Below, piece by piece: positions 2,146-20,506 of a DNA stretch of 23,632 nt. Location of the stretch: the IMG/VR virus record IMGVR_UViG_3300048592_000400, positions 1 through 23,632 of that record; one strand, 5' to 3'. Numbering within the stretch: the first letter of the stretch is position 1; each line of letters starts with the position of its first letter. A program made the translations under genes and the position numbers. The notes beneath the pieces were generated by a model. It did not search any database and was not told the origin of the DNA. It saw nothing but the letters and a program-made list of their open reading frames with translations. This DNA comes from a virus.

Positions 2146-2719
2146 TGGGTGTCAGCTTCTCGATCTCGCGCTCGAGGTACTCGGCGAGCAGCCCCTCGAT
2201 GAGCTGCGCGTTCTCCTGCAGCGCCGGCACCAGGAACTCCTGGGCGCTCGTGCGCTGGGTGCCGAGCTCGAGGAACCGCCAGTACCAGGTGTCACCGCCC
2301 GGGTTGTTCTTGCTCCCGGCGGTCTTGTACGTCCGGCCCACCCGCTGCTCGCGTCGGTTCTGGCGGGTGTTGGCGTACTGCTTCGCCCCGCCCATCACGC
2401 CGAGCCGCATGACGACGCCGCCGATGCGCTTGCCCTGGCGGCTTGAATTCTGGATCGCGACGTTGCGCCAGATCTTCTCGCCGCTCGCCGGGTCATCGAA
2501 TCCGCGAGCCGACGCCCGTGCGGCGTTCAACGCCACACGCATCGCAAGCCGCGAGGCACGCACCGCGCCCTTTCTCTGCAGCTTGTCCGGCAGCGCGCTC
2601 AGGCGATTGATGACGTCGCCCTTCGCCGTGATGCTGACATCGATGTCGAACGGGCTGGAGCCGGGCCGGCTGAGCGAGCGGCCCCTCGCGCGCAGCAGTT
2701 GCGTCGCAAAGTTAGCCAT
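2126..2719 (-). CDS. HK97 gp10-like tail completion / minor tail protein
   Basis: A 197-residue basic protein. An N-terminal segment (FDIDVSITAKGDVINRLSAL) leads into helices rich in Arg/Ala (RASRLAMRVALNAARASARG), then a strand-rich middle and the closing motif WYWRFLELGTQRTSAQEFLV with a following PALQENAQL. The F-L-E-L-G-T ... A-x-x-F-L-x-P-A-L signature is characteristic of HK97-gp10/lambda Z-like proteins that finish the tail end joining the head. It overlaps the upstream head closure gene by 8 bases, implying coupled translation, and sits in the usual order connector, closure, gp10-like, gp17-like, tube. Confidence 0.85.
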   Translation of the reverse strand: MANFATQLLRARGRSLSRPGSSPFDIDVSITAKGDVINRLSALPDKLQRKGAVRASRLAMRVALNAARASARGFDDPASGEKIWRNVAIQNSSRQGKRIGGVVMRLGVMGGAKQYANTRQNRREQRVGRTYKTAGSKNNPGGDTWYWRFLELGTQRTSAQEFLVPALQENAQLIEGLLAEYLEREIEKLTPNEPTPV

Positions 2720-3050
2720 CGTTCACGCCTTCGCTGCACGGGATCGTCAGGTACACCCGCCCCGAGCCCTTGTCGGCCAGGAACCCCTGCGGGTTATAGA
2801 TCCGCTCGCCGTGCTTGATGCGCATGTCGGCGGTCAGCCCGTCCATGTGCCGGATCGTGATGCGGGTCGTCACGGCCGACTGCAGCGCCTGGCCGGCGAG
2901 GAACTCGCGCACGCTCAGGTCCTCGATCGCGGCCGGCACGCCGTCGGCGAACACCGTCCACGCCGGCACCATCGCGCCGGTCGTCGTGTCCTGAACGTCC
3001 GAGCGCTGCTCGATCGTGACCCGGTGTCGCAGTCTGCCGGCCTCGATCAC
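2712..3050 (-). CDS. Head closure / head-tail joining protein (Phage_H_T_join)
   Basis: A 112-residue protein starting at a GTG that overlaps the previous stop as GTGA (3050-3047). Its N-terminus IEAGRLRHRVTIEQRSDVQD and the strand AWTVFADGVPAAIEDLS followed by REFLAGQALQSAVTTRITIR are the hallmarks of the SPP1 gp16/HK97 gp7-like head closure family: R-H-R-V-x-I-Q/E, W-x-x-x-A/D-V-x-A-x-I, and R-x-x-I-R. It would plug the portal-adaptor complex and provide the surface for tail docking. The GTG was preferred over an upstream in-frame ATG (3086) because it gives the four-base overlap used throughout this operon and starts at the conserved region. Confidence 0.85.
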   Translation of the reverse strand: MIEAGRLRHRVTIEQRSDVQDTTTGAMVPAWTVFADGVPAAIEDLSVREFLAGQALQSAVTTRITIRHMDGLTADMRIKHGERIYNPQGFLADKGSGRVYLTIPCSEGVNDG

Positions 3051-3685
3051 GGAAACACCTCCGCCAGTGGCGCGAGCCGAAAGCACCGCAGCGCCGTCGT
3101 CGGCGTGCAGTTGATGACCTCGATGCCGCGCTCCGCCAGGGCGGGGGCGAGCTCGCCGAACCGCTTCAGGAACGTCGCGAACGGGTTGCGCGTGTTGAGC
3201 GGGCCCGGATGGTTGCCGAACCAGTGGCGCTTGCCGCCGGTGTCCTGCATGTCGTACCCGAGCAGCACGATCCGCGTCGCGCCGAAGTGCACAGCCAGGT
3301 GCAGTGCCTGGTAGCCGGAATTGCTGCCGGTCACCAGGTGCGTCGGACGGTCATCGAACGGCCGGCGGTCGGACGGTTGCAGCGTGTGCACCTCCGGATA
3401 GCCCGCATCGGGCCGGATCGAGACCTTGAGCCCCGGGAACTTGAGAGCCCGGTCCGCGTAGCACTTCCACCACTTCGCGTCCGCCGCGTACAGCGCATCG
3501 GCCCACGGCGCGAAGGCCGGCACCGTCTGGCCGTTCACGTCGTTGTCGATGCCCTGGTTGCTGACCGCGATCACCCGGCAGCGGCCGCGCACCTGCTCGC
3601 ACTGCTCCCGGGTCAGGCTCGGGCCGCTCGCCAGGATGGAAACAGTCTGGGAGGGCCACAGCTGCGGCACGCTCCACTCACCCAA
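3047..3685 (-). CDS. Putative sialyltransferase-like / DUF115-like protein inside the connector block
   Basis: A 212-residue protein of unusual type for this position. It has an N-terminal SILASGPSL (17-24), a strand VIAVSNQGI (38-46), AWADALYAADAKWW-like segment around 60-73, VTGSNSGYQALHLAV (118-132), RIVLLGYDMQD (138-148) and HWFGNHPG (154-161). A G-x-G/S-P-S-L loop near the N-terminus, S-G-x-x-A-x-x-L-A before G-x-x-x-I-x-L-x-G-Y/I-D, and a later His resemble the DUF115 and GT42 (CstII-like) sialyltransferase fold. Substrate and activity cannot be read from the sequence. Start is TTG at 3685 (8-base overlap) or GTG at 3670. It could be a conserved accessory gene of this phage group or a cargo (moron) gene. 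Confidence 0.55.
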   Translation of the reverse strand: MGEWSVPQLWPSQTVSILASGPSLTREQCEQVRGRCRVIAVSNQGIDNDVNGQTVPAFAPWADALYAADAKWWKCYADRALKFPGLKVSIRPDAGYPEVHTLQPSDRRPFDDRPTHLVTGSNSGYQALHLAVHFGATRIVLLGYDMQDTGGKRHWFGNHPGPLNTRNPFATFLKRFGELAPALAERGIEVINCTPTTALRCFRLAPLAEVFP

Positions 3686-4034
3686 GCGCCGGGTCCCTCA
3701 GCGGGTAGAGCAGCGCCGTCACGACGGGCGGCAGGAACCCCTGTGCCCACTGCGCACCCTGGCCGCCGTCGCTGCCGCGATGCGCGAAGAACTCCTCGAC
3801 AAGCAGCAGCGTCGCCTGCTGGACCTCGGCCGGCACGATCGAGTAGCCGCTCGAGTCCGGCTCCGGGTCCACCCAGCCGCTGCTGTCGAGAAAGAAATCC
3901 GCGCCGTCGCCCAGGTAGTTCAGCACCGCAGCCGAGGCGCCGCGCACGAGCTGCGTGATCTTCACGTCCTGGTCCGTGCCGATGACCTCGCACTGGTCCT
4001 TGGCCTGCTCGAGCGTGACGAGTGACGGAGTCAT
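3678..4034 (-). CDS. Head-tail connector (HK97 gp6-like adaptor)
   Basis: A 118-residue helical protein starting MTPSLVTLEQAKDQCEVIGT, followed by VKITQLVRGASAAVLNYLG, IVPAEVQQATLLLVEEFFAH and the end VVTALLYPLRDPALG. The pattern of V-T-L-E-x-A-K, D-x-x-I-x-x-L-x-x-x-A-x-x-x-V-x-x-Y, V-x-x-A-x-L-L-x-x-x-x-x-Y/F, and a final V-x-x-L-L-x-x-x-R-x-P/x is that of Phage_connect_1/gp6-like adaptors that form a ring under the portal. The ATG at 4034 overlaps the stop of the collagen-like gene (ATGA). An upstream in-frame start at 4082 lies within the previous gene and would add an unrelated basic leader, so it is rejected. Confidence 0.85.
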   Translation of the reverse strand: MTPSLVTLEQAKDQCEVIGTDQDVKITQLVRGASAAVLNYLGDGADFFLDSSGWVDPEPDSSGYSIVPAEVQQATLLLVEEFFAHRGSDGGQGAQWAQGFLPPVVTALLYPLRDPALG

Positions 4035-4861
4035 TTTTCGACGTCCCGGCCGTCCCGACCTTTCTTCACCGCCAGGCGCCACTCAGCCGACGTGCCGGGC
4101 TTTGTCGTTGGTGCGTCCACCTGCGCAATCCACCAGGAGCCACCGAAGGTGACGCCGTCGCCGCGCTCATAGGCCTCGCCCTCGCGGAAAATGCCCTTGT
4201 CGAGCGGCCCGGGATAGCGGACCTCAGTGACGGTCTTCGCGCCATCGGTGTAGGTGAACACGGTGCGCATTGTCCGATCGCTCGGGTACTCGACCTCCGC
4301 GCTCGCGATGCCTCGCACGATTACGATCCAGCCGGCCCCCTCGAGGCCCGCGGCCTCGGCGATCGGCGTCGTCTTGCGGGTCGAGCGCAGCAGCCCGCCG
4401 GCGTGGGCCGCGAAGGTCCCGCGCGGGTACGACTTGGCCGGGTCCAGGTCGGGCTGAATGCTGATCTCGAGCGCATCCTTTCCGTCGAGGCCTCGCTCGC
4501 CAGGTGGGCCCTGCTCACCCTTTTCGCCTTTCTCCCCACGCTCGCCGGGGTCGCCCTTCAGGTGGGCAAAGAAGGACTTGGAGGATGGGGTGTCGAGTAT
4601 CGCCTGCGCCACATCCCGTGGATTGGTCGGAGGGCAGTCCTGACCGGCCTCACCCTTCTCGCCCCGCTCGCCCGGCGGCCCCTGCTCGCCCTTCTCGCCG
4701 CGCTCCGGGATCCGTGCCGCGACGCGCTCGACCTGGAGCGCGAGCGTCTTGCTGAATCGATCGAAGGTCTCGTTCCAGCGTTCCTCGATCCTCGCGAGCT
4801 CCCGCTGGATCACGGCGCGCACGGCGACTGCGGCTCGCTCTGCGAAGTTCTCATCGGTCAC
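4031..4861 (-). CDS. Collagen-like virion protein
   Basis: A 276-residue protein with a helical N-terminus (about 1-50), two collagen-type tracts and a globular C-terminus. Tract one (residues 55-75) has seven Gly-X-Y triplets, tract two (103-129) nine, rich in GEK, GER, GEQ and GPP. The tracts flank a short helical segment (PRDVAQAILD). The C-terminal part holds two similar segments, one near 138-160 (DPAKSYPRGTFAAHAGGLL) and one near 226-247 (REGEAYERGDGVTFGGSWWI). The latter resembles the Y-x-x-G-D-x-V-x-x-x-G-x-x-W/Y core of small carbohydrate-binding modules. Phage collagen-like proteins form trimeric fibres. Start is GTG at 4861 after GAGGTGAT. A fibre or spike role is inferred. Confidence 0.65.
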   Translation of the reverse strand: MTDENFAERAAVAVRAVIQRELARIEERWNETFDRFSKTLALQVERVAARIPERGEKGEQGPPGERGEKGEAGQDCPPTNPRDVAQAILDTPSSKSFFAHLKGDPGERGEKGEKGEQGPPGERGLDGKDALEISIQPDLDPAKSYPRGTFAAHAGGLLRSTRKTTPIAEAAGLEGAGWIVIVRGIASAEVEYPSDRTMRTVFTYTDGAKTVTEVRYPGPLDKGIFREGEAYERGDGVTFGGSWWIAQVDAPTTKPGTSAEWRLAVKKGRDGRDVEK

Positions 4862-5084
4862 GGTTCATCACCTCTATGACGATCGGCATGATTTCCAGCA
4901 GGTCGCGATCGTCGCGAAGGAGCAGGTCGATCGGCAGATACGGAATGACGCCGCCGAGGATCACCGCGGGCGGCACCGGAGGCTCGACCGGCGGCGTGCT
5001 GGTCGGCCACAGCCCGAGGTAGGCGATCGATATGGCGCCGAACCCGACGCCGAGCGTGGCGATCGCGCGCGGGTTCAGGCTCAC
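4851..5084 (-). CDS. Small membrane-associated protein of unknown function
   Basis: A 77-residue protein, GTG start overlapping the previous stop (GTGA). One hydrophobic segment (about residues 8-26, ATLGVGFGAISIAYLGLW) precedes a Pro-rich linker (PTSTPPVEPPVPP), a second hydrophobic patch VILGGVIPYLPIDLLL and a charged tail ending VIEVMNRDR. I do not recognise a family. It is translationally linked to the TGSG-repeat virion protein upstream and the collagen-like protein downstream, so a virion assembly or membrane-contact role is possible; a holin is less likely because it has only one clear membrane span and lies amid structural genes. Confidence 0.6.
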   Translation of the reverse strand: MSLNPRAIATLGVGFGAISIAYLGLWPTSTPPVEPPVPPAVILGGVIPYLPIDLLLRDDRDLLEIMPIVIEVMNRDR

Positions 5085-5920
5085 TGGCGTTCGACGGTGA
5101 CGGTCCCGGCGCCCTCGGTCACGGCCAGCGTCCAGTCATCGGTGGAGATCTCGGTCGCCGACTGCAGCAGCGGCTTCGTGGGATCGAGTCCTAGGCGCTG
5201 GAAGATCTCGAGCAGCTGTGTGGCCTGCTCGGTCGTGAGGCCGCCGGCGGAGCCGCCGTTCAGCAGCGCCCCCATCGTCCCGGCGGAATTGTTGGCGGCA
5301 GCGATCGCGCCCCATACCGCGGAGCCGACGTTCCCGGTCGTGAGGCCCGTGCCCGTCACGACCAGGTCGGCATCGAGCTCGCCGACGCCGGTCAGTACGG
5401 AAGCATCCAGCCCGCCCTCGCCCAGGATCGCGGCGAGCATCGCGCCGAATCCCTCGAGGTCGGCATCGGTCACGCCACCCGAGCCGGTCAGGTTCGCGAC
5501 GGCTGCGAGGAACGCCTGCAAGCTCGCGGCCGTGATCGCGCCCGAGCCGGTCAGTGCAGCGACCAGCTGCACGATCAGGCCGCCGACGGCCGTCAGCTCG
5601 CCGCTGCCGGTCAGTGCCGCTTCTGCGAGCTTGACCGCCCAGCGGTCTGCGTTCGAGACCGTACCGCTGCCGGTGACGGTGTTGCGCGCCGCGAGTGCGC
5701 CGGCCTGCTGCGGCATGATCCACGCGCTCGGGTGCCGGTTGCCCGACGGAACGCTGACGAGCTCACTGGTAATGCCCTCGCCTGCGGTCAGGTTCCGGTT
5801 CGCGGCGGTGCGGTGGTAGTTCTGCACCGTGACCGACGGATAGGCGTTATTGGACGCCGTCGCCCCGAAGATCTGAAACGCGCCCAGGGTGTCGCGAAAG
5901 TTATTCGCGAGCAGGCCCAT
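5081..5920 (-). CDS. Virion protein with TGSG repeats
   Basis: A 279-residue Ala/Gly/Thr-rich protein. A conserved-looking N-terminus (MGLLANNFRDTLGAFQIFGA) is followed by a repeat region in which the turn TGSG recurs at residues 83, 104, 124 and 145, then TGVG at 177 and TGTG at 189, spaced about 20 residues in the first four and separated by short helices (for example ITAASLQAFLAAVANL). The C-terminus (LGLDPTKPLLQS ... GTVTVERQ) looks like endings found on phage structural proteins. The ATG overlaps the previous stop as TGATG. Position among capsid and connector genes suggests a head-surface or fibre component, but no function can be assigned from motifs. Confidence 0.65.
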   Translation of the reverse strand: MGLLANNFRDTLGAFQIFGATASNNAYPSVTVQNYHRTAANRNLTAGEGITSELVSVPSGNRHPSAWIMPQQAGALAARNTVTGSGTVSNADRWAVKLAEAALTGSGELTAVGGLIVQLVAALTGSGAITAASLQAFLAAVANLTGSGGVTDADLEGFGAMLAAILGEGGLDASVLTGVGELDADLVVTGTGLTTGNVGSAVWGAIAAANNSAGTMGALLNGGSAGGLTTEQATQLLEIFQRLGLDPTKPLLQSATEISTDDWTLAVTEGAGTVTVERQ

Positions 5921-6819
5921 CAGCTGCCGCCGTACCCGTAGTCAAAGTCCACATTGACCGTGCCGGCCGAGGTCGTCGCACCGGTCTGGAACAGAAGGAA
6001 CTGGATGTTCGCGCCGTCGGGGATCTTGCGCATTGAAGGCAGCGAGTTGACGAAATCGACCTTGTTGTAGAGGCCGGTCGCCGGGACAGGGATCGTCCAC
6101 AGCGGCTTGCACAGGCCGAGGAGAGCGGACCCCGAAGCGTGCGCCGTACCCGCCCACACGACCGAAACGATGTCGCTGACGCCGGTATCGCCCGCCGCAA
6201 GCGGGAGGAACGGGTTGTACTTGTTCGCCGCCGCGCCCGTGTTGAGCAGCGAGCCGATGGTCAGCGAAGCCGTCGAAGTGAACGTCGTCGTCGCGCCTGC
6301 TGCGCCGCCTGTGTCGAGGTAGTTGACGATGCACGTCGGAGCGTTCGCGCCGAGGGCAGCATTCGCCGCCATGAACATTCGCAGCCCCTGTCCGTTGGGG
6401 TAGCGATCGCCCTTACCGCCGCCAGAGCCAAGGGCGGTCATCGTAACGACCTTGGTGCCGGTGGTCGTGAAGTCCGCGCCCGAGATCGGGACGTACCCGA
6501 CGAGGTCGATGGCCATGACGTACCACGGCGCACCGGCTGCGGCAACGCACGCAGCGCCTGCCGACAGGAAGTGCTTCGTGGCTGGCGAGACATCTCCGCC
6601 CGTGTAGATCGTTCCGTCAGCCCAAGTGTCGTCGGTGGGGACGTACGTCAGGCTCGTACCTGCGAACCCGCTCAGTGCGGGGTAGCCCGCATGCTTGGCC
6701 ATCAGGGTCCAAGCACCAGCGATTCCGGCTGCCCCGAGGGTTTTGGTCGTGACGACCGTGTCGCCCTTGCCGTTGACGGTCAGCTGGGTGATCAGGTCGT
6801 CCTGGCTGGTGAATCCCAT
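5920..6819 (-). CDS. Putative virion protein, paralogue of the gene upstream
   Basis: A 299-residue protein rich in Ala, Gly and Thr, beginning MGFTSQDDLITQLTVNGKGD. It resembles the preceding gene product over most of its length. Shared features are the MGF start, a central beta-rich domain, and the string LAAGDTGVSDIVSVVWAG followed by a hydrophobic strand (LLGLCKPLWTIPV), a DGANIQFLLF-type end and small-residue composition. No membrane segments, catalytic motifs or signal peptide are seen. As it lies in the head gene cluster between portal and connector it is most likely a virion component. A GAGG element precedes the ATG. Confidence 0.65.
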   Translation of the reverse strand: MGFTSQDDLITQLTVNGKGDTVVTTKTLGAAGIAGAWTLMAKHAGYPALSGFAGTSLTYVPTDDTWADGTIYTGGDVSPATKHFLSAGAACVAAAGAPWYVMAIDLVGYVPISGADFTTTGTKVVTMTALGSGGGKGDRYPNGQGLRMFMAANAALGANAPTCIVNYLDTGGAAGATTTFTSTASLTIGSLLNTGAAANKYNPFLPLAAGDTGVSDIVSVVWAGTAHASGSALLGLCKPLWTIPVPATGLYNKVDFVNSLPSMRKIPDGANIQFLLFQTGATTSAGTVNVDFDYGYGGS

Positions 6820-6826
6820 GAGTGCC

Positions 6827-7723
6827 TCAATTCCAGAAAGTTTCGACGATCCCCGCGAGGATCGAAGTGGCCAGCGACCCGGCGTACCCGGCGGCGAGTA
6901 GTCCGAGGACCGCGCCGTCCTTGATCTGCGGCGCTCCAGCGGCGTGGATGACCGACTGGAACTCCGCGCACGAACCGTAGCTCTCGAGGTTACCCGAGGT
7001 CGTCCGGCGGCATTCCTGCGCGACGAAGTGCATGAGCAGCGGCTTGACGATGACGAGCGCCATCAGTCCGCCGCCCGCCGCCGTGAACGTCACGGACTCG
7101 ATCGAGCGCACGCCCGAGTCACCGGCCTGCAGATATACGAACGGGCTGTAGGACGCGCCCGCGCCGCTTGCGCTGACGATCTGGCCGCCGCCGGCAACCG
7201 CGAAGGTGAATGTGTTCTGCGACACTCGCCCAGGCACGCCGTCCTGGTTGGTGTACGTCATTGTGAACTGTCCGACCGCCGACGCCGCGGACTGTGCGAC
7301 CGCGATCACCTGACCGGCCCCGTAGCGCGGCAGCACGATCGTGTTGTCGAGGTCCTGCTGCTCGCCGATCGCGTCCGTGTCGATGAACGGGTAATAGAGC
7401 AGATAGTCGCAGAGCGCGAGCCGCTGGCGCCCGTTGGCGGTCGACGTCGCCGAGTTCGCGGCCGTCATCACCCGCAGGTTGTTCAGGTGCTGCGTCGCCG
7501 GCGCGACCGATGGCACGTACAGTCCGCGCGTCGGGTCCACCACCGCGGCCTCAAGGGGCGTCGAGGCGTAGAAGTTCGCCGGCGGCGAGCCCGCGAAGTA
7601 GGTGTAATCGACCCACGCGGCCGCGGTCGTTGCGGCGCTGGCCACGGCCTTGCGAAATTGTGTGGTCCACACCTGCCCGGCTTCATCGGCCGCCGCGTAC
7701 TCGCTGATCGAGCCGAATCCCAT
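6827..7723 (-). CDS. Putative virion protein (first of a tandem paralogous pair)
   Basis: A 298-residue protein beginning MGFGSISEYAAADEAGQVWT. The ATG at 7723 shares its last base with the upstream TAA (TAATG), which chooses this start over a longer frame reaching 7852. The middle has SATSTANGRQRLALCDYLLY and YPFIDTDAIGEQQDL, followed by beta-rich sequence and LQAGDSGVRSIESVTFTAAG with LMALVIVKPLLMHF. This last block matches LAAGDTGVSDIVSVV and LLGLCKPLWTIPV in the next gene. It ends in a hydrophobic, small-residue helix (AGSLATSILAGIVETFW). I recognise no named family; capsid decoration or another head-associated role is inferred from context. Confidence 0.65.
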   Translation of the reverse strand: MGFGSISEYAAADEAGQVWTTQFRKAVASAATTAAAWVDYTYFAGSPPANFYASTPLEAAVVDPTRGLYVPSVAPATQHLNNLRVMTAANSATSTANGRQRLALCDYLLYYPFIDTDAIGEQQDLDNTIVLPRYGAGQVIAVAQSAASAVGQFTMTYTNQDGVPGRVSQNTFTFAVAGGGQIVSASGAGASYSPFVYLQAGDSGVRSIESVTFTAAGGGLMALVIVKPLLMHFVAQECRRTTSGNLESYGSCAEFQSVIHAAGAPQIKDGAVLGLLAAGYAGSLATSILAGIVETFWN

Positions 7724-7992
7724 TACACACACCGCCCCGTGAGTGCTGCGGCGATCTTCCAGTAGCCGACCTTCGTGCGGTCCTTCCAGTTCAGGCCACC
7801 CTCGCCCGCAACGATGGCCTTGCGCGGGGCGATGATGCCCGCGTCCTTGCACTCGATGCAGGGGCGATCGATCACCGGCTCACCGCCGGCCACCGGCGTC
7901 ACCTTCACGGCCCGCAGGCACTCCGAGCAGTAGTACAGGGGCGGACCCAGCTTGTCCCACAGGGCCCGCTCGAGGTCGCTGCGCTGATCCAT
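7723..7992 (-). CDS. Small CxxC zinc-finger-like protein
   Basis: An 89-residue protein starting MDQRSDLERALWDKL. Two CxxC pairs at residues 22/25 (YCSEC) and 45/48 (PCIEC) make a likely zinc ribbon or treble clef. The tail GLNWKDRTKVGYWKIAAAL is basic and aromatic. The ATG overlaps the upstream stop as TGATG and its own TAA overlaps the next ATG, so three genes are chained. Nothing else identifies its role; it may be a minor virion or assembly factor. A longer frame to 8367 exists but is antisense-like to the coding pattern of the neighbouring gene and was rejected. Confidence 0.6.
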   Translation of the reverse strand: MDQRSDLERALWDKLGPPLYYCSECLRAVKVTPVAGGEPVIDRPCIECKDAGIIAPRKAIVAGEGGLNWKDRTKVGYWKIAAALTGRCV

Positions 7993-8426
7993 CAGGATTC
8001 GGTAACCGTGAGCGCGCCGGCTGCGAACTGCGGCGTGATGCCCGACGACACGGCCAGCGGGGAATTCAGTTCGCCGTAGTGCCAGACGGCCGTGGCCCCT
8101 GACACCGCGACGCCGGTCGACACATCCGTCAGCGTCGCGCCCGAGGCACCGCACTGCGGGAACGAGATCGTCGCGGCATTCGCCGTAGCACCACCCGAGG
8201 CGGCATCCCAGCCCGTTGAGCGGGCAACCGACTGGCGCGCGTAGTTGGTGTACGCCGTTTCGTTCTCGGCCTGGGAATTCGTCGCCGCCGTGAGGCCGGC
8301 CGTGTGCAGCCCGACGAACACGTTGGCGAGCGGTGAAGCGGCGGCATTGTCTGCCACGTTCGCCCACGCCGTCGCCCGGTACATCAGGTTGACGATGGAG
8401 TTGCAGGTCGCGGTGCTCTTTGGCAT
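7992..8426 (-). CDS. Putative virion structural protein
   Basis: A 144-residue protein beginning MPKSTATCNSIVNLMYRATA and including NVADNAAASPLANVFVGLHT. It continues into Thr/Ala-rich beta sequence with AVWHYGELNSPLAVSSGITP and ends GALTVTES. This N-terminus followed by an F-V-G/S-L-H-T strand and a Y-A-R-Q-S-V-A-R segment resembles a group of small phage structural proteins often labelled tail-fibre-like; I recall the type but cannot confirm the assignment. AGGAATC lies upstream of the ATG. Its place directly after the portal and V-repeat genes supports a capsid-associated role. Confidence 0.6.
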   Translation of the reverse strand: MPKSTATCNSIVNLMYRATAWANVADNAAASPLANVFVGLHTAGLTAATNSQAENETAYTNYARQSVARSTGWDAASGGATANAATISFPQCGASGATLTDVSTGVAVSGATAVWHYGELNSPLAVSSGITPQFAAGALTVTES

Positions 8427-8441
8427 CAGATTGATTCCTGG

Positions 8442-8837
8442 TCAGCCTCTCGGCGAAATGACGAATGAGACGATCAGTCCCTGACGATCGCGCTCGGTGA
8501 CCCGCACGTCATAACTGCGAGCCTCGGCGGCTGCAACGTAAACCGGCGAGTCTATGTTGACGATCGGCGCCGGCACGTTGACATCGACGCGCGGCGCGGC
8601 CTGCGTCGGCAGCTGCACGTTGACCTGCGGCTCGAGGTTGACCACCGAGGCCGGGACGTTTACCTCGACGGTGGGCGCCGGCTGCTGAGGCACCTGCACG
8701 TTGATCTGTGGCGCCGCCTGCTCGGGCACGTTGACCGTGACCTGAGTCTCGGGCCGCCCCTTGATGGCGCTGGCGACGTCGCCGACGCTCGATGCGAGGT
8801 CCTGGATCTCGGTCGCGATCAGGGCCGCTTCGTTCAT
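8442..8837 (-). CDS. V-x-V-x-V-P repeat protein next to portal
   Basis: A 131-residue protein whose ATG overlaps the portal stop (ATGA). A short helix (NEAALIATEIQDLASSVGDV) is followed by repeats of the form V-x-V-N-V-P: QVTVNVPEQAAP, QINVQVPQQPAP, TVEVNVPASVVN, QVNVQLPTQAAP, RVDVNVPAPIVN. The last part (YDVRVTERDRQGLIVSFVIS) looks like a regular beta strand domain. Alternating Val with Pro/Gln linkers suggests an extended or beta-solenoid-like fibrous segment. Function is unknown; the gene is in the portal operon and may encode a small head or tail-tip fibre. Confidence 0.65.
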   Translation of the reverse strand: MNEAALIATEIQDLASSVGDVASAIKGRPETQVTVNVPEQAAPQINVQVPQQPAPTVEVNVPASVVNLEPQVNVQLPTQAAPRVDVNVPAPIVNIDSPVYVAAAEARSYDVRVTERDRQGLIVSFVISPRG

Positions 8838-10597: not shown

Positions 10598-12001
10598 TTA
10601 CGGGCTGCCGGCCGTGCCGTAGTGCGCGTTGTTGACGTACGCGACTGCGGTCGAGCGACGCTTGGCGAAGTTGATCGGGACCAACACCCGCAGCGCCACC
10701 ATGCCAGCCTGGAACATGGAGACCATGCTCGCGGACTGCGCCGTCGGCGTGTCACCTTCACCGGTGGGCGCCGTGTCCATCTCTATCGTCGCATCACGCG
10801 ACAGCGCCACCTCGACCCCCATCGCGCCGATGCGATAAATGTCGCTCGGCTTCAAGAGGATGAAGTGCTGCGCGCCGACGTTGTCGCCGGTCACGACCGG
10901 GTCGCCGAGCAGCGTGCCGCCGGTGGCGGTGATGCCCGGGAACTCGGACTGGCCGAGGGCGTTCGTCAGCAGCTGGATGCTCTTCGCCAGCGACGGATTC
11001 ATCAGGAACGTGAGGCCCGTCGCGTTCTTCGCGCTGATGAAGCCCGCGTAGAGCGTCTTCACGTCGGCGCGGAGTGCGTCACCATCGATGCCGGACGAGT
11101 TCGAGGCGCTGACACCGTTCAGGATGCCCGCCGGCGACACGCCCGACACGGCCGCGGCAATGCCCGCGAACGTGGTGTCGATGCGCTGCACGGCAGCGTT
11201 CACGAGCGCGTCACGGATCAGCATTTCCGCCGACGGGCTCGAATCCCGGAACAGCTCGATCGAGGCCGCAGCCAGGGCAGCCACCTTCAGCGGGGTCAGG
11301 CTGACCGAGCTGAAGTCACCCTTCGTCACCGGGATCGGGCGGTTCTCACCCACCCAGTATCCCGTCGCCGCGCCGTCCTGTCCCTTGATCGCGACGTTCG
11401 CCGGCACCTCGCGCAGGCCGAGGCGGTTGTACACCGTCATGCCGTACAGGTACTCGATGAAGTCGCCCGTGTAGCGGTTGTCCGCCGAGACGAGCTCCGC
11501 GCCCGGCTCGCCGCTGCCCGACCCGTGACCGGCGACACCGGCGCGGATGACCTCGACCAGCTGCGGGTTGCTGCGGCCCCAGCGCTGCTGGGCGATGTCG
11601 GCCGCGGTGCGAACCTCGCCGCCGAGGCTCTCGTTCTCGAGCTGCGCGAGCGTACGGGCGATCACCTTGCGGGTGAAATTCTGGCCTTTGAACTTCTCAT
11701 CGGCCTCGCGGTTGACGACGATCGCCGGGGCGGTGCCGCGGGAGTCACCAGCGGCCTTCGCCGTCGGCTCCTGGCTCACGGGCTTGGCGCGGGCGCCGGT
11801 CAGCTGCTCGAGGCGACGCAGGCGCACCAGGTCGGCGTCGAGCGCCTTCATCTCGGTCTCGATGCCGTCGAAGTCCTCGGTCTCGGCCTCGTCCATCGAT
11901 CGACCTTCGTCGATCGACTTGCGGGCGATCTCCTCCATCCGGGCGACCTTGGCCGCGCGGGTGTTCTCCAGATCCTTGATCTGGTCTGCAATGGTCTTCA
12001 T
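10598..12001 (-). CDS. Major capsid protein (HK97 fold)
   Basis: A 467-residue major capsid protein. Residues 1-70 form a charged heptad-type helix (IKDLENTRAAKVARMEEIAR ... EMKALDADLVRLRRLEQLTG), the delta-domain scaffold removed by the prohead protease in HK97-type phages. The mature shell part follows, with YLYGMTVYNRLGLREVP, GAATGYWVGENRPIPVTKGD, SVSLTPLKVAALAAASIELF, GLTFLMNPSLAKSIQLL and LLGDPVVTGDN, in typical Phage_capsid order and ending VALRVLVPINFAKRR. Cleavage probably falls between about 70 and 110. The ATG lies one base from the protease stop. The longer delta domain makes it larger than HK97 gp5. Confidence 0.95.
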   Translation of the reverse strand: MKTIADQIKDLENTRAAKVARMEEIARKSIDEGRSMDEAETEDFDGIETEMKALDADLVRLRRLEQLTGARAKPVSQEPTAKAAGDSRGTAPAIVVNREADEKFKGQNFTRKVIARTLAQLENESLGGEVRTAADIAQQRWGRSNPQLVEVIRAGVAGHGSGSGEPGAELVSADNRYTGDFIEYLYGMTVYNRLGLREVPANVAIKGQDGAATGYWVGENRPIPVTKGDFSSVSLTPLKVAALAAASIELFRDSSPSAEMLIRDALVNAAVQRIDTTFAGIAAAVSGVSPAGILNGVSASNSSGIDGDALRADVKTLYAGFISAKNATGLTFLMNPSLAKSIQLLTNALGQSEFPGITATGGTLLGDPVVTGDNVGAQHFILLKPSDIYRIGAMGVEVALSRDATIEMDTAPTGEGDTPTAQSASMVSMFQAGMVALRVLVPINFAKRRSTAVAYVNNAHYGTAGSP

Positions 12002-12002
12002 T

Positions 12003-12584
12003 TCACTTACCTCGGGGAATCAGGGGGATGCCACCGCGCTTGACGGTGGTGGGGTCGCCCGAAACGCCGGGCACGAGAAGGACCCCGCCGCGCGCCTGGC
12101 CAGTCGCGGCCCGCGCAGCAGAGTCGTACATCTTGATCGTCTGGATGGTGGCGTCGGCGTTGGCCGGAATCGTCACGGCGCTCAACTCGAGCCACTCCCA
12201 TTCGAGGAACTTCCAGCCATCCCACGGGCGCTCGGCGTCGAGCGGCTCGTGCTTCAGCGAGCGGAAGCCGATCGAGAAGCCCTTCACGAGCTTCGCCTTG
12301 ATCTGCTTCCAGGCGGTTTCGACGTAGTCGAGGCCGCTGTCCTTGGCGATCCGCGCCTTGACGGTGATGCGCTTGCCGGTGACCGAGGCTTCAAACACCT
12401 CGCCGATCGGCGAGTCGTGGCGATGCTGGTGCAGCAGCGGCAGCGGCAGGGCGAACTTGGCACCGGACGGCACCACGACGTCGCTCATGCGATCGGCGGT
12501 GATGCTCGAGGCGACGCCGGTGACGATGCGCTCCTCGGCGTCATCGATCGCCTTCACTTCGAACTGGCTGTATGCGCGATCCAT
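12003..12584 (-). CDS. HK97-type prohead protease (peptidase family S78)
   Basis: A 193-residue serine protease of the herpes assemblin-like fold that cleaves the capsid scaffold. The N-terminus reads FEVKAIDDAEERIVTGVASS, the catalytic His lies in LLHQHRHDSPIGEV (His52 the best candidate), and the Ser in LVKGFSIGFRSL (Ser104). The family closing strand WLELSAVTIPANADATI is also present. The C-terminus is short and basic. It is directly upstream of the capsid gene with one base between stop and start, as for coupled protease-capsid pairs. Nothing is truncated. Confidence 0.93.
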   Translation of the reverse strand: MDRAYSQFEVKAIDDAEERIVTGVASSITADRMSDVVVPSGAKFALPLPLLHQHRHDSPIGEVFEASVTGKRITVKARIAKDSGLDYVETAWKQIKAKLVKGFSIGFRSLKHEPLDAERPWDGWKFLEWEWLELSAVTIPANADATIQTIKMYDSAARAATGQARGGVLLVPGVSGDPTTVKRGGIPLIPRGK

Positions 12585-12593
12585 CGGGTTACC

Positions 12594-14381
12594 TCAGAGG
12601 AACAGCATTTCGAACTTCGGGCCGTGCGGGCTCTTGAACTTCTCCGCACAGCGGATCGCCATCGCGAGCGACACGATCCCGTCGATTCGACCGCGCGACT
12701 TGCGCTTGTCGAACTTCTTCTCCTCGGCCGGGCCGGAGGTGATCACGGCATTCGCCGAGCACATGGTCAGCACCGGGTTGCGGTGCACCTGCAGCGTCTT
12801 GTTGGTGACGACGGTGCTCAGTGCTTCAACCGTCGGCGTCATGTCGCGGAACCCCTGGCCGTGGTTCACCAGCAGCAGGCCGGTGGCCTTGCGCAGTTCC
12901 TCCTCGGCGGTATCGAGGCTCACCACCGTGTAGTCGAACCCGGCGTCGTCGAGATCTCGCTGCAGATCCGAAATCCGGTAGCGGTCGAACGCCACCGCCT
13001 CGAGACCGTAGTGCTCGCGGAAGTCGATCAGCCGGCGAGCGACGTACTCGTATTCGACCGTGGCGCCCGGCGTGGCCTCGAGGTGCCCCTGGTCGCGCCA
13101 GACGGTGTACGGCACACGGTCGCGCTCCTCGCGCTGGCGGAGCCCCTCTTCCGGCGCCCAGAACCAGACGAAGGCATCGAACCCGGTGCCGTCCGGGCGC
13201 GCGAACACGAGCGCGAGCGACGTGAGATCGTTCCGGGCCGACAGGTCGAGCCCAGCCCAGCAGCGCGAGCCGCGGTACTGGGCGAGGTCGGGCTCGCCTT
13301 CGCAGGAGCGCCAGGCGTCGCCGTCGATCCAGGGCGTGGCCGCGTCCACCCACTCGCAGAAGTTGAGCCTGCGCACCTTCGAGGCGTACGCCGGCATCCC
13401 CTCGGCCTTCTTGACCTGCTCGCGCAGGTACTTCTCCGTGACCGAGACGCCGTAGTTCGGGTTTGCCTTCTCCCAGACCCGCTCGTCGCGCCAGTCGTCG
13501 CCGCGATCGAGGCCGCAAACGTAGGCGAACCAGGCGTCGTCGTCGACCCGCCCGTCGAGCACCCGCTGCGAGTACTCGTGATGCTGGAAGCAGATCGAGG
13601 TCCGGTCATACCCGGAGTTTGTGATCTCGAGCTTCAGCGGCTGCCGGCGGAACTTGAAGCCCGCCTCGAGCATGTCGACGACCGTGCCGTCGGGATGCTC
13701 GTGCAGCTCGTCGCACAGCGCGCAGTGCGGGCGCGGGCCGGACTGCTTGTCGTCGGAACTGATCGTCCGGAAGAACGAGTCGCTCTTCGGGAAGAACATA
13801 TTCCAGGGGTTGAGGCCCCCGTACTTGATCAGCGCCCGCGTGAGCGTCGGCGACTGATCGCGCATCGCCACCGCGTCGCGGAACAGGATCATCGCCTGGT
13901 CCTTGGTCGACGCTGCCGCGTACACCTCGGCGCGGGCCTCCTTGTCGGCGGTCAGGCAGTACAGCCCGATGCCGCCGGCGAGGGGTGATTTTCCATTGCC
14001 TTTCCCGATCTCAACGTACCCGGTGCGGAACCTGCGGAACCCGTCGGCGCCCAGCCAGCCGAACACGGAACCGACCAGGAACGCCTGCCACAACCGCAGC
14101 TCGAACGGCTTGCCCTCGAACTGGCCGCCGTTCAGCCGCAGCACGCTGCGGAAGTAGCCGTAGATGTGGTCCGCCCGCTCGAGCGACCACTTGAGCCCGC
14201 GCTTCGGGCCGCTCGACAGGTCCGCGACGTGTCGCTCGCAGGCCTTGCGCACCCAGGGCCCAGCGACGATGTCCCCTGCAGCGACCGCTTCCGCGTAGAC
14301 GGTGGCCGGATCGGCGCCGTGCTGGCTCGCCGGGTCAGTTGAGGTAGGCGGCGCCCGGGTCCGTTTCTTCGTTCGGGTCAA
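12594..14381 (-). CDS. Terminase large subunit
   Basis: A 595-residue packaging motor/nuclease. The ATPase part has EIGKGNGKS (124-132, a deviant Walker A), a Walker B in HCALCDELHEHPDG (about 219-232) and a motif III-like KLEITNSGYDR (250-260). The nuclease part has AGLDLSARNDLTSL (Asp379), AFDRYRISDL (Asp466) and GRIDGIVSLAMAI (Asp567), fitting the three acidic residues of the RNase-H-like fold. The start is TTG at 14381: an in-frame TGA lies 9 bases upstream and AAGGTGAG sits at proper distance. It overlaps the small subunit gene by 47 bases. Confidence 0.95.
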   Translation of the reverse strand: MTRTKKRTRAPPTSTDPASQHGADPATVYAEAVAAGDIVAGPWVRKACERHVADLSSGPKRGLKWSLERADHIYGYFRSVLRLNGGQFEGKPFELRLWQAFLVGSVFGWLGADGFRRFRTGYVEIGKGNGKSPLAGGIGLYCLTADKEARAEVYAAASTKDQAMILFRDAVAMRDQSPTLTRALIKYGGLNPWNMFFPKSDSFFRTISSDDKQSGPRPHCALCDELHEHPDGTVVDMLEAGFKFRRQPLKLEITNSGYDRTSICFQHHEYSQRVLDGRVDDDAWFAYVCGLDRGDDWRDERVWEKANPNYGVSVTEKYLREQVKKAEGMPAYASKVRRLNFCEWVDAATPWIDGDAWRSCEGEPDLAQYRGSRCWAGLDLSARNDLTSLALVFARPDGTGFDAFVWFWAPEEGLRQREERDRVPYTVWRDQGHLEATPGATVEYEYVARRLIDFREHYGLEAVAFDRYRISDLQRDLDDAGFDYTVVSLDTAEEELRKATGLLLVNHGQGFRDMTPTVEALSTVVTNKTLQVHRNPVLTMCSANAVITSGPAEEKKFDKRKSRGRIDGIVSLAMAIRCAEKFKSPHGPKFEMLFL

Positions 14382-14802
14382 TCGTGCTCACCTTGGCGCG
14401 GGCGGCCGGCGTGAAGCCGAGCTCGCACACGGCCGCGCGGTAGCGGCGCCAGGCGTCGGACTGGATGGCAACCTCGGGCCGCGCCTTGATCACGAGGTCA
14501 CCGTTCTGGTTCGTCGTCTCGTACGTCAGGCCGTTGTCCATGACCGCGGTGCGGGCGGCTGCCCAGGTGGAGTACGCCTCGGCCGCGAGCTCGAGGATTC
14601 CGCGATCGACCGTCGTGAGCACCTGCGCCTTGGTCGCATCGGCCACCAGGCGGCGCCATTCGAGCCGACCGATTTCGTCGAGGCCACCCGGCATCGCCGG
14701 CACACCGGCCTCGAGCTTTGGCTCGCGCTTGTTGTACGCGCGCTTACCCGGGTTGCCTTTTGCCTTGCGGATTGATGTTGGAGTGCGAGGCGGACCAGAC
14801 AT
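14335..14802 (-). CDS. Terminase small subunit (P27 family)
   Basis: About 155 residues from the ATG at 14802. The start reads MSGPPRTPTSIRKAKGNPGK, then RAYNKREPKLEAGVPAMPGG, LDEIGRLEWRRLVADATKAQ and VLTTVDRGILELAAEAYSTW; the end has RRYRAAVCELGFTPAARAKV. A G-N-P-G-K-R N-terminus, P-x-P-x-x-L-x-x-x-G-x-x-E-W and L-T-x-x-D-x-x-x-L-x-x-x-A-x-x-Y/W, and G-L/F-T-P-x-x-R are P27 terminase signatures. It recognises DNA and loads the large subunit. An in-frame GTG at 14847 would add 15 residues; the ATG matches the typical N-terminus better, but no strong ribosome site decides. Confidence 0.92.
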   Translation of the reverse strand: MSGPPRTPTSIRKAKGNPGKRAYNKREPKLEAGVPAMPGGLDEIGRLEWRRLVADATKAQVLTTVDRGILELAAEAYSTWAAARTAVMDNGLTYETTNQNGDLVIKARPEVAIQSDAWRRYRAAVCELGFTPAARAKVSTIDPNEETDPGAAYLN

Positions 14803-14864
14803 GCTGAGATCGTCAACCTGTATTTCAGAATCAACTTGCGGACGCACGCGCGCATTGGTAGGCG

Positions 14865-14907
14865 CGGTCTACAGACCGACCGATTTCATTTCGGAACCAC
14901 CCCCCCC
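14865..14907. other. Candidate cos / packaging region between HNH and terminase genes
   Basis: The gap of about 70-115 bases between the packaging HNH gene and the small terminase subunit holds a run of eight C (14900-14907, G8 on the coding strand) and a perfect 6-2-6 inverted repeat CGGTCT AC AGACCG (14865-14878). In HK97-like phages with an HNH next to P27 terminase, cos lies in this gap. The sequence supports a specific protein site; that it is cos is inferred. Confidence 0.35.
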
Positions 14908-14917
14908 GTGCCCGGGC

Positions 14918-15271
14918 TCATCGGTGCCAGTGGTGGTGCGGGTCGAGCGGCGTGCCATCGACGTTGCAGCCGATGATCCGACCGTGCTCTTCAATCTGCT
15001 TCGTGGAGTCGTGGCAGCGCTTGCAAAGCGCCTGCCAATTGCCCGTCTCCCAGAACAGGCGCTGATCGCCCTTGTGGGGGATGACGTGGTCGACCACGGT
15101 GGCCTTCCTGAGGCGTCCACCCTCGCTGCACTTGGCACACAAAGGGTGGCGGCGCAGGAAGGTCTCTCGGGCCTTCCGCCACCGACGGTCATAGCCGCGC
15201 TTGGCTGCTGTCCTGCGATCGTCGCCGGCTACCTCAGAGGTATTGCGGCTCGCCATCGCCCTCGTCGTCAT
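14918..15271 (-). CDS. HNH endonuclease of the packaging module
   Basis: A 117-residue HNH nuclease (or 112 from the ATG at 15256, preceded by GAGGGC). Core motifs are HPLCAKCSEGGRL (first CxxC), ATVVDHVIPHKGDQ (catalytic DH), LFWETGNWQALCKRCHDSTK (N and second CxxC) and the tail DGTPLDPHHHW. Proteins of this type (HK97 gp74-like) directly precede P27 terminase genes and are needed with terminase for cos cleavage. The ATG at 15271 sits within the reading of the upstream small gene. It is therefore considered part of the DNA packaging machine, unlike the homing-type HNH genes further upstream. Confidence 0.9.
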   Translation of the reverse strand: MTTRAMASRNTSEVAGDDRRTAAKRGYDRRWRKARETFLRRHPLCAKCSEGGRLRKATVVDHVIPHKGDQRLFWETGNWQALCKRCHDSTKQIEEHGRIIGCNVDGTPLDPHHHWHR

Positions 15272-15464
15272 TGCCCGCCAGTGCCTCCACCAGCGCCATG
15301 TTCGCTGCCACCAGCTGGGGCAGCAGTTCCGCCAGCCGCTCCATCGCTTCCGCCTGCCGGGTCAGGCTGGCTACGAGGGGCTGGCATACGCTGCACGAGC
15401 ATGGCAAGGCGTCGTTGTTCCCGCTGCTCGAGCCAGCGCACGAGCTTTCGTCTGCGCTCAACAC
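15234..15464 (-). CDS. Small helical protein of unknown function
   Basis: A 76-residue frame from GTG at 15464 (TTG at 15461 is also possible). A Cys/Ser-rich start includes CSCSVCQPLVASLTRQ, followed by an amphipathic helix EAMERLAELLPQLVAANMAL and an acidic tail EALAGNDDEGDGEPQYL. The third codon positions are G/C almost throughout, as in other genes here, which favours this frame over the overlapping 69-residue frame (15477-15268). No ribosome site is evident. Function unknown; its helix would suit a small lysis or assembly factor but there is no specific evidence. Confidence 0.5.
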   Translation of the reverse strand: MLSADESSCAGSSSGNNDALPCSCSVCQPLVASLTRQAEAMERLAELLPQLVAANMALVEALAGNDDEGDGEPQYL

Positions 15465-15480
15465 AGCCGCAGGCCATTGG

Positions 15481-16077
15481 TCACGCAGCTGCGCACTTGG
15501 CCACGATCACAGCATCAGCCGGCAGCTTCTGCCCACGCTTGTTGAGCTGCACCGCAGACGCATCGACGACGTGCCAGTCGGCGCGCTTCTTGTCCAGCTT
15601 CAGCTCACCGCAAGGCGTACCGAGCGCTACCGTACCGACCTTGAGGCCAAGGCCCCAGCGCGTCATCACCTTGGCCACGGTCTCGACAGTAACGATCGTG
15701 GGCGGATTCGGCGGCGGGAACGCGATGACCTTGGTGGCGATGCCGGACGGGCCGGACTCCTGGTTACCAGCGGCCACCGTCGTGCGCGTGTAGGCGCGGA
15801 AGCAGTGCGTGCCAGGCGCGAACCCGCTGATCGTGGTCGTGGTCGCAGGGGCCGGGACGGTCACCTGGCCAGCCACCGTGCCGAACGCGGTGCCGGCGCA
15901 GCTGCCGTACTCGACGCGCGTGCTGGCGATCTGGTTGAGCGCGAGGGCGCTGCCGTCGGTGAACTGCGTCGGGTGCGTCCAGGAGACCGTGACGTTCGCG
16001 GCCAGCAGCGGGCCCGAGAACGACAGCAGCAACAGCACGCCGAGGAACAGGCGGAACTCAGGGCTTAGGCTTCGCAT
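15481..16077 (-). CDS. Secreted fibronectin-III-like protein
   Basis: A 198-residue protein with a signal peptide (basic start MRSLSPEFR, hydrophobic LFLGVLLLLSFSGPLLA, cleavage probably after Ala26). The mature part begins NVTVSWTHPTQFTDGSAL and has STRVEYGSCAG, ATTTTISGFAPGTHCFRAYT and ATKVIAFPPPNPP, the pattern of one fibronectin type III domain with a likely Cys pair. A basic C-terminal domain follows (about 125-198). It is the first gene after the late terminator and lies where lambdoid phages keep lysis genes. An exported Fn3 protein is not a lysin; adhesion, envelope alteration or a virion part are possible. Confidence 0.65.
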   Translation of the reverse strand: MRSLSPEFRLFLGVLLLLSFSGPLLAANVTVSWTHPTQFTDGSALALNQIASTRVEYGSCAGTAFGTVAGQVTVPAPATTTTISGFAPGTHCFRAYTRTTVAAGNQESGPSGIATKVIAFPPPNPPTIVTVETVAKVMTRWGLGLKVGTVALGTPCGELKLDKKRADWHVVDASAVQLNKRGQKLPADAVIVAKCAAA

Positions 16078-16163
16078 GGCGACCTCGCAATAGATCCGGT
16101 CCCGAGCGCAGGCTCAGGTTCCAGGAGACATTTGTGGCGTGTGCCTGGTGGGACCGGGTGTAC

Positions 16164-16187
16164 AAAAAACGCCGCCCGAAGGCGGCG
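16164..16187 (-). terminator. Intrinsic terminator after the late regulator gene
   Basis: Perfect 7-bp stem CGCCGCC / GGCGGCG with a CGAA tetraloop in forward reading (16170-16187), TTCG on the transcribed strand, followed in the minus direction by TTTTTT (16169-16164). This is a strong rho-independent terminator between the late regulator (stop 16228) and the late genes (first start 16077). It resembles the lambda Q-tR' arrangement. The rest of the 150-base gap (16078-16227) shows only a short GACGT TG ACGTC inverted repeat at 16190-16201 and no convincing promoter. Confidence 0.88.
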
Positions 16188-16227
16188 AAGACGTTGACGT
16201 CGGGAGAGTGACGACAACAGGGGGAGT

Positions 16228-16734
16228 TCACGCGGCAGGCTCACAGGGTGAGCCTAGCTTCACGGATTCAACCATCTGCGACCGGGCTTGATATAGAACT
16301 TTCGTGTCTAGAGTCAGGCAGGTACGGATGCAGGCCTTGGCCGTGTCGCGCCGGTGGTAGTACTCGGCGAGGCTCAGGCCGAGGCGCTGGGCGATGGTCT
16401 GCTGCTTGCTGGGTCGCTTCAGTCGCTCCCAGGTGGTCTGGTCGTAACAGCGGCCGATGTAGTGATGCCAGATCAGGTCACGCTGGCCGGCGGGCATGGT
16501 CTTCAGCACGACGGCGACGACGAGACCTGTGCCGAGGAACACCTCGGGCCAGCTGCGGCCGTGCTCGGTATTTGAGGCGGCCGCGTCGGCGAGCTCGCGC
16601 ACTCGGCCCAGCGTGCAGGACATCGGGCCGATGTAGCGGCCGGCGCGATCCGGAGCCCGCTTGAAGTTCGCGACCCACTGCCACGCCCAGGCCGAGCAGG
16701 CGATATCGACGTCGTCCTCGTGCCAGCGGGCCAT
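16228..16734 (-). CDS. Sigma-region-4-like protein, probable late gene regulator
   Basis: A 168-residue protein. The core reads VVLKTMPAGQRDLIWHHYIG (76-95), KQQTIAQRLGLSLAEYYHRR (110-129) and TAKACIRTCL (131-140): the L-x-x-L/M-P-x-x-x-R-x-x-I-x-x-x-Y followed by Q-x-x-I-A-x-x-L-G-x-S-x-x-x-Y layout of sigma-70 region 4 and of ArpU/RinA/Q-like phage late regulators. It lies last in the early leftward operon and just before a strong terminator that precedes the late genes. Antitermination or late promoter activation are both possible; the sequence does not decide. ATG overlaps the upstream stop (TGATG). Confidence 0.6.
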   Translation of the reverse strand: MARWHEDDVDIACSAWAWQWVANFKRAPDRAGRYIGPMSCTLGRVRELADAAASNTEHGRSWPEVFLGTGLVVAVVLKTMPAGQRDLIWHHYIGRCYDQTTWERLKRPSKQQTIAQRLGLSLAEYYHRRDTAKACIRTCLTLDTKVLYQARSQMVESVKLGSPCEPAA

Positions 16735-16946
16735 CAGCGATCCCTCCGCAGGAATCGCTTGGGAGGCCGGCTGCCCAGGTAATCGCGCGCGGTCTGCGGG
16801 CTCACGCCCCAGCGACCCGCCAAGTCCTTCAGCCCTTCCCCGCAGATCCGCACCCGGAACGGCAGCGATTCCAGGATGCTGCGGATCGTGAGCATCTCGC
16901 CTATGTGTTCAGCCTTGATGGCGGGCGGGCGGCCGTACCACTTCAC
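16734..16946 (-). CDS. Small helix-turn-helix protein
   Basis: A 70-residue basic protein starting GTG at 16946 (GTGA overlap with the HNH gene). The middle, LTIRSILESLPFRVRICGEG, leads to LKDLAGRWGVSPQTARDYLG (39-58), which reads as a helix-turn-helix with a turn at WGVSP, and a basic tail PPKRFLRRDR. DNA binding is inferred. It is linked by overlap to the late regulator next to it, so the two may work together. No named family is recognised. Confidence 0.6.
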   Translation of the reverse strand: MKWYGRPPAIKAEHIGEMLTIRSILESLPFRVRICGEGLKDLAGRWGVSPQTARDYLGSRPPKRFLRRDR

Positions 16947-17841: not shown

Positions 17842-17969
17842 CAGGCGAAGATCCGCCAGATCATCCAGGCGAGGGCGCCGATCGACGCCGTGATCCACAG
17901 CGAGTTGATGATGCCGGTGACGAACCGGCGGCCATTGTCGAAGTCGTCGTGCTGGTCGGGGTCTTGCAT
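17841..17969 (-). CDS. Small single-span membrane protein (42 aa)
   Basis: A 42-residue frame, MQDPDQHDDFDNGRRFVTGI followed by INSLWITASIGALAWMIWRI and FA. An acidic start and basic GRR precede one membrane span (about residues 16-40), giving an N-in topology by the positive-inside rule. Both ends overlap neighbours by one base (TGATG at 17971-17967 and 17843-17839), which supports real translation despite the size. Short membrane proteins of this form are common in phage early operons (host takeover, exclusion), but the role is unknown. Confidence 0.6.
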   Translation of the reverse strand: MQDPDQHDDFDNGRRFVTGIINSLWITASIGALAWMIWRIFA

Positions 17970-20434: not shown

Positions 20435-20506
20435 TCCGGTCTCCTGTCGCCGTAGATCGGACGGAATTCGCCCTTACCCGTTGCGCCTGAGCGCGCGAGG
20501 TAGGGA

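Follow-up and report, generated by a model that had tools for sequence, protein, structure and literature searches.

Why does a gene that resembles sialyltransferases lie between two head-tail connector genes of a phage, joined to both? We addressed this question in a virus record of 23,632 bases (the window, meaning the whole stretch of DNA analysed). Its late genes lie on the minus strand, in the order large terminase, protease, major capsid protein (MCP), portal, collagen-like protein, head-tail adaptor (Ad1), the gene in question (here called GT42L), head-closure protein (Hc1), neck, tail terminator, and major tail protein (MTP). The reading we favour, with a probability of about 0.57, is that GT42L is an accessory glycosyltransferase of a modular glycan cassette lodged among head-tail genes, and that the cassette probably glycosylates the virion. 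The gene and its family are already in databases; the cassette view and the link to virion glycosylation are new here. We recognised no description of such a cassette with GT42L in the licence-limited literature searched, which is weak evidence of absence.

The gene and its neighbours

GT42L occupies positions 3047-3685 on the minus strand and encodes 212 amino acids from a TTG start. The TTG is favoured as the start because a putative ribosome-binding site read from the sequence, GAGGGA (3694-3699, minus strand), lies 8 nt ahead of it. On the upstream side, the Ad1 stop codon TGA (3680-3678) and the GT42L start (3685-3683) form an 8-nt overlap. On the downstream side, the GT42L stop (3049-3047) and the GTG start of Hc1 (3050-3048) share the 4 nt GTGA. 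The first-pass annotation had reported overlaps of 8 and 4 bases with the two connector genes and had suggested a tight integration with them; both overlaps are exact, and the start-stop junctions on both sides support the integration.

The neighbours, all on the minus strand, have family matches. Ad1 (gp6-like, 3678-4034) matches phrog_40 (E 1.3e-17) and PF05135 (9.6e-5); a longer open reading frame (ORF) begins at 4082, and the ATG at 4034 gives the length found in a sibling contig (L183, ORF 13722-14078). Hc1 (2712-3050) matches phrog_25 (E 3.3e-28) and PF05521, Phage_HCP (1.2e-25). They are followed by a neck/tail-completion protein like HK97 gp10 (2126-2719; phrog_5, E 8e-11) and the tail terminator (1777-2145; phrog_78, E 4.7e-14; PF11367, 1.8e-12). 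Upstream of Ad1, the collagen-like protein with Gly-X-Y repeats (4031-4861; phrog_1289, E 8.5e-42) has a C-terminal domain that is also found in the C-terminal extension of certain portal proteins, and is possibly a head fibre or a glycan acceptor.

Two other stretches of the window's minus strand carry additional genes. In L183 the portal and collagen-like genes overlap by 4 nt; relative to this sibling, about 4 kb of extra genes (4851-8837) separate them in the window, and four of the five ORFs scanned there had no PHROG match. A second stretch of about 5 kb (16943-21966) holds at least four HNH-endonuclease-like ORFs (16943-17449, 19141-19701, 20648-21229, and 21352-21966), with a resolvase/nuclease-like ORF amid them (17446-18099).

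Compared with two siblings at about 93% nucleotide identity, GT42L had dN/dS values of 0.063 and 0.050, as low as those of Ad1 against the same siblings (0.060 and 0.072), which indicates purifying selection on GT42L. These low values, together with a family match at E 4e-41, show that the ORF does not arise by chance.

Family membership and predicted fold

The family in question is phrog_4603, which GT42L matches over residues 18-210 (profile positions 1-172 of 178, E 4.3e-41). It is annotated as alpha-2,3-sialyltransferase, and its members include orf7 of Pseudomonas phage D3, P1 pmgO, and P7 hdmB. Among 50,697 phage records searched with tblastn, 76 had a GT42L match, including these three genes and Caulobacter and Klebsiella jumbo phages. 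P1 pmgP (L030, 3507-4133), annotated only as morphogenetic, is a second copy of the GT42L family and overlaps pmgO by about 100 nt; a profile grown for pmgP converged on the same 187 ORFs as that of GT42L and thus does not define a separate family.

At E<=1, the only Pfam matches of GT42L were PF01973 (MptE-like) and PF09292, and the score of the former (E 1.2e-5, 25.6 bits) is below the curated cut-off of 34.6. There was no match to the Pfam GT42 family, to a connector PHROG or to a connector Pfam family at E<=1, and none in NCBIfam. We therefore rejected filing the gene as GT42, for want of a match to that Pfam family, or as PF01973 (MptE-like/DUF115), because of the score under the cut-off. 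A sialyltransferase activity is likewise no more than putative, since GT42L lacks that Pfam GT42 match and none of 16 records searched has a CMP-nonulosonate synthetase family.

Four motifs had led the first-pass annotation to call the product enzyme-like and not connector-like, and all are found in GT42L: GPSL (21-24), VTGSNSGYQAL (118-128), LLGYDM (141-146), and HWFGNH (154-159). In an alignment of 107 relatives, G21 never varies, and 106 of them have G143 and likewise D145; the positions conserved in at least 90% are S23, D69, G120, G124, A131, G135, L141, G143, D145, H154, and N192. Two conserved histidines, H154 (101 of 107) and H159 (89 of 107), are candidates for the catalytic residue, the role of H188 in CstII.

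AlphaFold2 with the 107-sequence alignment gave a confident model (pLDDT 96.5, pTM 0.93); an alignment-free prediction (pLDDT 35.9) was left unused. Foldseek returned no PDB hit for the model at E<=0.001, and the fold matches given here come from a second-look structural alignment with VIA-align. The best was Maf (5mu5; Z 15.9 over 182 residues, 3.2 A), and CstII (1ro8) reached Z 12.8 with 185 residues aligned at 3.9 A. Lower Z scores went to the HPPK of M. jannaschii (10.6), to SteA (10.4), to several thiamine pyrophosphokinases (about 9.7), and to GT29 sialyltransferases (about 9.4). In a search of PDB sequences with the family profile, CstII came first with a weak E of 0.009, and the GPSL and SG...GxD motifs, putative CMP-binding elements, were aligned.

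The HPPK and thiamine pyrophosphokinase scores, along with the PF01973 match under its cut-off, would fit a pyrophosphokinase-like or other transferase on the MptE/TPK side of the fold. We consider this quite improbable: Maf and CstII score higher and with wider coverage, the sequence profile reaches CstII first, and the partner genes described below are glycan enzymes. On the predicted structure, GT42L is most likely a glycosyltransferase with the Maf/CstII/DUF115 fold. The GT42/DUF115-type fold suggested at first reading is thus recovered by structure prediction, and its view of an enzyme-like protein agrees with the fold, the conserved residues, and the lack of a connector family match.

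Slots, optional presence, and partner genes

Synteny was labelled with profiles grown from genes of the window, D3, S20 (whose S20_48 is an Ad1-type adaptor), P1, Eowyn, and CcrSC. Before counting, each set of loci with 60-mers in common was reduced to a single representative (173 of 227 in the GT42L slot survey; 25 of 105 in the survey that holds the D3-type set).

GT42L has a head, neck or tail gene on its own strand no more than 3 kb away in 108 of 114 distinct loci selected by GT42L. It occupies several slots: MCP to Ad1 in 29 loci, Ad1 to Hc1 in 27, collagen-like gene to Ad1 in 11, tail terminator to MTP in five, and Hc1 to neck (gp10) in two; in the remaining loci it is cut by a contig end or positioned elsewhere. 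One contig (L203) carries two copies in different slots, and a start-stop overlap is found at the GT42L end in 94 of 156 copies. Its presence is also optional. When blocks were chosen by MCP or Hc1 regardless of GT42L, six of 25 distinct complete blocks had the gene and 19 did not, and in 11 of these 19 Ad1 and Hc1 overlap by exactly 4 nt, as an empty site.

These results bear on the proposal that GT42L serves the connector itself, as a structural or assembly factor whose fold has been repurposed. The gene overlaps on either side would suit it, and the record of Klebsiella phage Eowyn (LR881104.1) annotates its homologue as a structural protein. However, the gene is optional and slot-variable, has no connector family match, and carries enzyme-like conserved residues, and the P1 homologue is nonessential: one study gives a plating efficiency of 1.1 after pmgO knockdown and lists the gene as nonessential in a deletion survey (PMC10695390). 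In the study of the P1 virion proteome, pmgO goes unmentioned throughout the main text, and 24 of 29 knockouts are reported without a plaquing defect (PMC9024508). We rejected GT42L as a connector component and regard such a role as very improbable; the repurposed connector fold offered by the first-pass annotation does not stand, as Ad1 and Hc1 abut without GT42L in related blocks, the gene uses several slots, and pmgO can be lost. Pairwise-distance correlations of GT42L with head genes were low (0.03-0.20), and since those among the head genes themselves were low too (0.11-0.35), they give no sign of independent transfer.

Across the GT42L loci surveyed, glycosyltransferase and methyltransferase genes are embedded in structural genes, a multi-gene cassette that lay beyond the view of the first-pass annotation. 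At least one further HMM-defined glycan family is present in 79 of the 114 distinct loci, and none in 35. The partners comprise a KpsC-like family (PDB KpsC, E 4e-4), a GT9 family (heptosyltransferase II, E 4e-4; I, E 0.002), a GT-D family (PF08759, E 3e-25), GT2, an FkbM methyltransferase, a GT8-like family, the phrog_1962 glycosyltransferase, and small methyltransferases. Pfam searches of 95 otherwise unassigned slot ORFs added Methyltransf_24 (15), GT2 (5), Glyco_trans_1_2 (2), GT29 (2), hexapeptide transferases (2), a sulfotransferase, and a pyruvyl transferase; the same 95 also include non-glycan genes (HNH, capsid or decoration proteins). The counts of GT-D (GT_a) and methyltransferases are approximate, as the two profiles overlap through fused ORFs. 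ORFs of about 400 aa that match both and appear to be fusions occur in L106 (8716-9936), L056 (1481-2647), and L103 (8380-9579).

The co-occurrence holds in blocks chosen regardless of GT42L. By HMMs, 11 of 37 distinct complete blocks had GT42L and a partner, two had GT42L alone (L299 and L300, complete but with no recognised partner), and 24 had neither. Partners without GT42L were found in none of these 24 by HMMs and in one (L210) by reading the ORFs. Fisher values for the link were 5.6e-6 (25 blocks) and 9e-8 combined, or 6e-6 with two of the GT42L-free blocks taken as partnered; they ignore relatedness and are not used as probabilities. We put no probability on the co-occurrence because related loci are not independent.

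L210 carries three glycosyltransferase-like ORFs, named by eye, between Ad1 and Hc1 (5925-8434), and two of the three have weak GT2 and Stealth_CR2 matches. With no GT42L there, the Ad1-Hc1 slot evidently takes unrelated cassettes too. The Ad1-Hc1 insert of L333, also read by eye, had no evident glycosyltransferase.

The window itself holds GT42L alone, and the partners of its lineage were seen beyond its end in a sibling contig. L034 shares 98.3% identity with the window along 5.2 kb that include GT42L and run up to the window's end; the two GT42L genes differ at one, synonymous, position. Past that point, L034 has a tape-measure-like ORF (11097-13211) and a further ORF (13211-13852), both named by eye, then two KpsC-like ORFs (14158-14964 and 14987-15781), a GT9 gene (15648-16382; PF01075, 8.6e-5), and the start of a methyltransferase. 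Thus, the window's phage group does have GT42L partners, although not adjoining GT42L. Likewise, in L183, which represents the window's siblings in the counts, the partner counted lies beyond the MTP gene and not in the slot.

In D3, GT42L precedes Ad1, and Hc1 is followed by orf12 (D3_12) and a methyltransferase. A set of 70 loci chosen by a D3-type Hc1 had GT42L in 66, D3_12 in 66, and the methyltransferase in 65. After near-copies were collapsed to eight representatives, five had all three genes, and L295, L297 (both complete), and L298 (incomplete) had none. The three are contiguous in Eowyn and L018. This pattern, with its two complete negatives, is only suggestive of one functional unit split around the connector genes. 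D3_12 had no PDB sequence match at E<=1 and a weak link to the GT9 family (86%).

A cassette of this kind could instead glycosylate phage DNA at hypermodified bases. Some phage glycosyltransferases do act on DNA, according to PMC12619734, and phrog_2675, named DNA methyltransferase, matches eight of the 95 unassigned slot ORFs. Nevertheless, the GT42L genes sit with structural and not nucleotide-metabolism genes, and PF00303 (thymidylate synthase/hydroxymethylase) was found in one of 16 records searched, several of which are fragments. We judge this explanation unlikely.

Probable role and comparison with known systems

For the virion-glycosylation reading, we propose the following course. GT42L would be made late, its translation coupled to that of the connector genes. 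It would take a sugar from a host nucleotide sugar, perhaps CMP-Kdo or another CMP-nonulosonate, and together with its partners build or cap a small glycan on a phage structural protein. Like the modification of flagellin by Maf, this would happen in the cytoplasm, while the particle is being assembled or earlier, and the enzyme would not stay in the particle. Such a decoration may shield or tune the virion while being dispensable in laboratory plating. A virion protein is inferred as the acceptor from the analogy with mycobacteriophage cassettes and from Maf as the nearest fold. The modification of a virion or surface glycan proposed at first reading is therefore kept as the likely role, by analogy, on the cassette partners and the fold. 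Ser/Thr-rich tails of MCP or MTP proved negative as an acceptor signature: the Ser/Thr fraction of MCP C-termini was 0.137 in GT42L-positive loci (n=91) vs. 0.180 in negative ones (n=35), and that of MTP C-termini 0.211 (n=62) vs. 0.210 (n=14), richer in neither case.

The main alternative is that the cassette acts on the host surface, modifying LPS or a different glycan there in lysogens or in the late phase of infection, with receptor masking, superinfection exclusion or keeping progeny off debris as its purpose. The partners are similar to KpsC and to heptosyltransferases I and II, whose donors are those of LPS or capsule, many GT42L members are in bacterial genome contigs, 39 of 41 genome-contig relatives (all but L141 and L145) have Gram-negative-type taxon labels, and P1 and D3 are temperate. 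On the other hand, GT42L lies inside the head-tail block and not in a separately promoted moron, and the cassette shares families with one reported to modify capsid and tail tube. In addition, none of 327 slot ORFs had the two or more hydrophobic segments of a multi-pass membrane protein by strict settings, and one by loose settings (15 and 56, respectively, among 3,822 other ORFs). This argues against O-antigen-type systems with flippase- and polymerase-like proteins. LPS core transferases, such as GT9 heptosyltransferases, are soluble or peripheral and would escape the argument, so the LPS core stays a possible acceptor. Taken together, we find modification of the host surface possible but doubtful.

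Returning to glycosylation of the virion, the donor could be host CMP-Kdo or a similar sugar, given that a CMP-nonulosonate synthetase family was absent from all 16 records searched, that the taxon labels are mostly of Gram-negative type, and that one Maf enzyme accepts Kdo. More tentatively still, and as an idea with the odds against it, phages of Gram-negative bacteria might coat their particles with an LPS-like glycan made from host LPS-core donors (CMP-Kdo via the KpsC-like enzyme and GT42L, ADP-heptose via GT9), encoded by exchangeable cassettes at head-tail start-stop junctions, as mimicry or shielding of the virion.

A few mycobacteriophages have documented virion glycosylation. The layout described here suggests that phages and prophages of Gram-negative bacteria commonly carry a modular counterpart built from different enzymes, among them relatives of D3 and P1 that are easily grown. 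The label alpha-2,3-sialyltransferase among head genes, which has the look of a misannotation, becomes a testable system. It would bear on antibody recognition in phage therapy, on particle stability, and on adsorption, and may be a source of soluble glycosyltransferases of possibly unusual specificity.

Among the phages of phrog_4603, D3 likewise has orf7 in the connector block beside Ad1, but before it, whereas GT42L of the window lies between Ad1 and Hc1. In P1, pmgO lies among pmg genes, and no head-neck gene was recognised in the stretch read.

Among enzymes, Maf 5mu5 shares the fold of one domain with GT42L (Z 15.9 over 182 residues), but it is a protein of 632 residues with extra domains and 13% identity, whereas GT42L is a bare 212-aa domain. 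According to PMC11339370, Maf enzymes O-glycosylate flagellin, a self-assembling structural protein, and the Kdo-accepting Maf comes from the same source. CstII resembles GT42L in fold (Z 12.8) and in the aligned GPSL loop and S-G...G-x-D motifs; it differs in its 16% identity, a profile E of 0.009, and the lack of a Pfam GT42 match in GT42L.

A system of comparable organisation is that of the cluster O mycobacteriophages Corndog and Firecracker, with an O-methyltransferase and several glycosyltransferases among structural genes. In Corndog, as described in PMC4351075, an O-methyltransferase and three glycosyltransferase genes lie in the portal-protease interval; infected cells yielded their products, twice-banded virions did not, and a modification of the capsid was proposed there. 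Subsequent papers citing Freeman 2023 (PMC11600133, PMC12619734, and PMC11256854) report capsid and tail tube as the targets of enzymes of this type or as carriers of glycans. The Firecracker cassette differs in lying between portal and protease and in its mycobacterial hosts, and the 10 Firecracker proteins tested matched neither GT42L nor GT9, with a KpsC-like score that is negligible at 3 bits. A weak match of the Ccr513 family to gp34 (hhalign 53%) was excluded from the shared families. Two gene families are nonetheless common to the Firecracker cassette and the GT42L loci: gp35 has its match in the cassette GT2 family (hhalign 95.7%, E 1e-8), and gp33 in a methyltransferase ORF directly next to a GT42L copy of L105 (37% over 123 aa).
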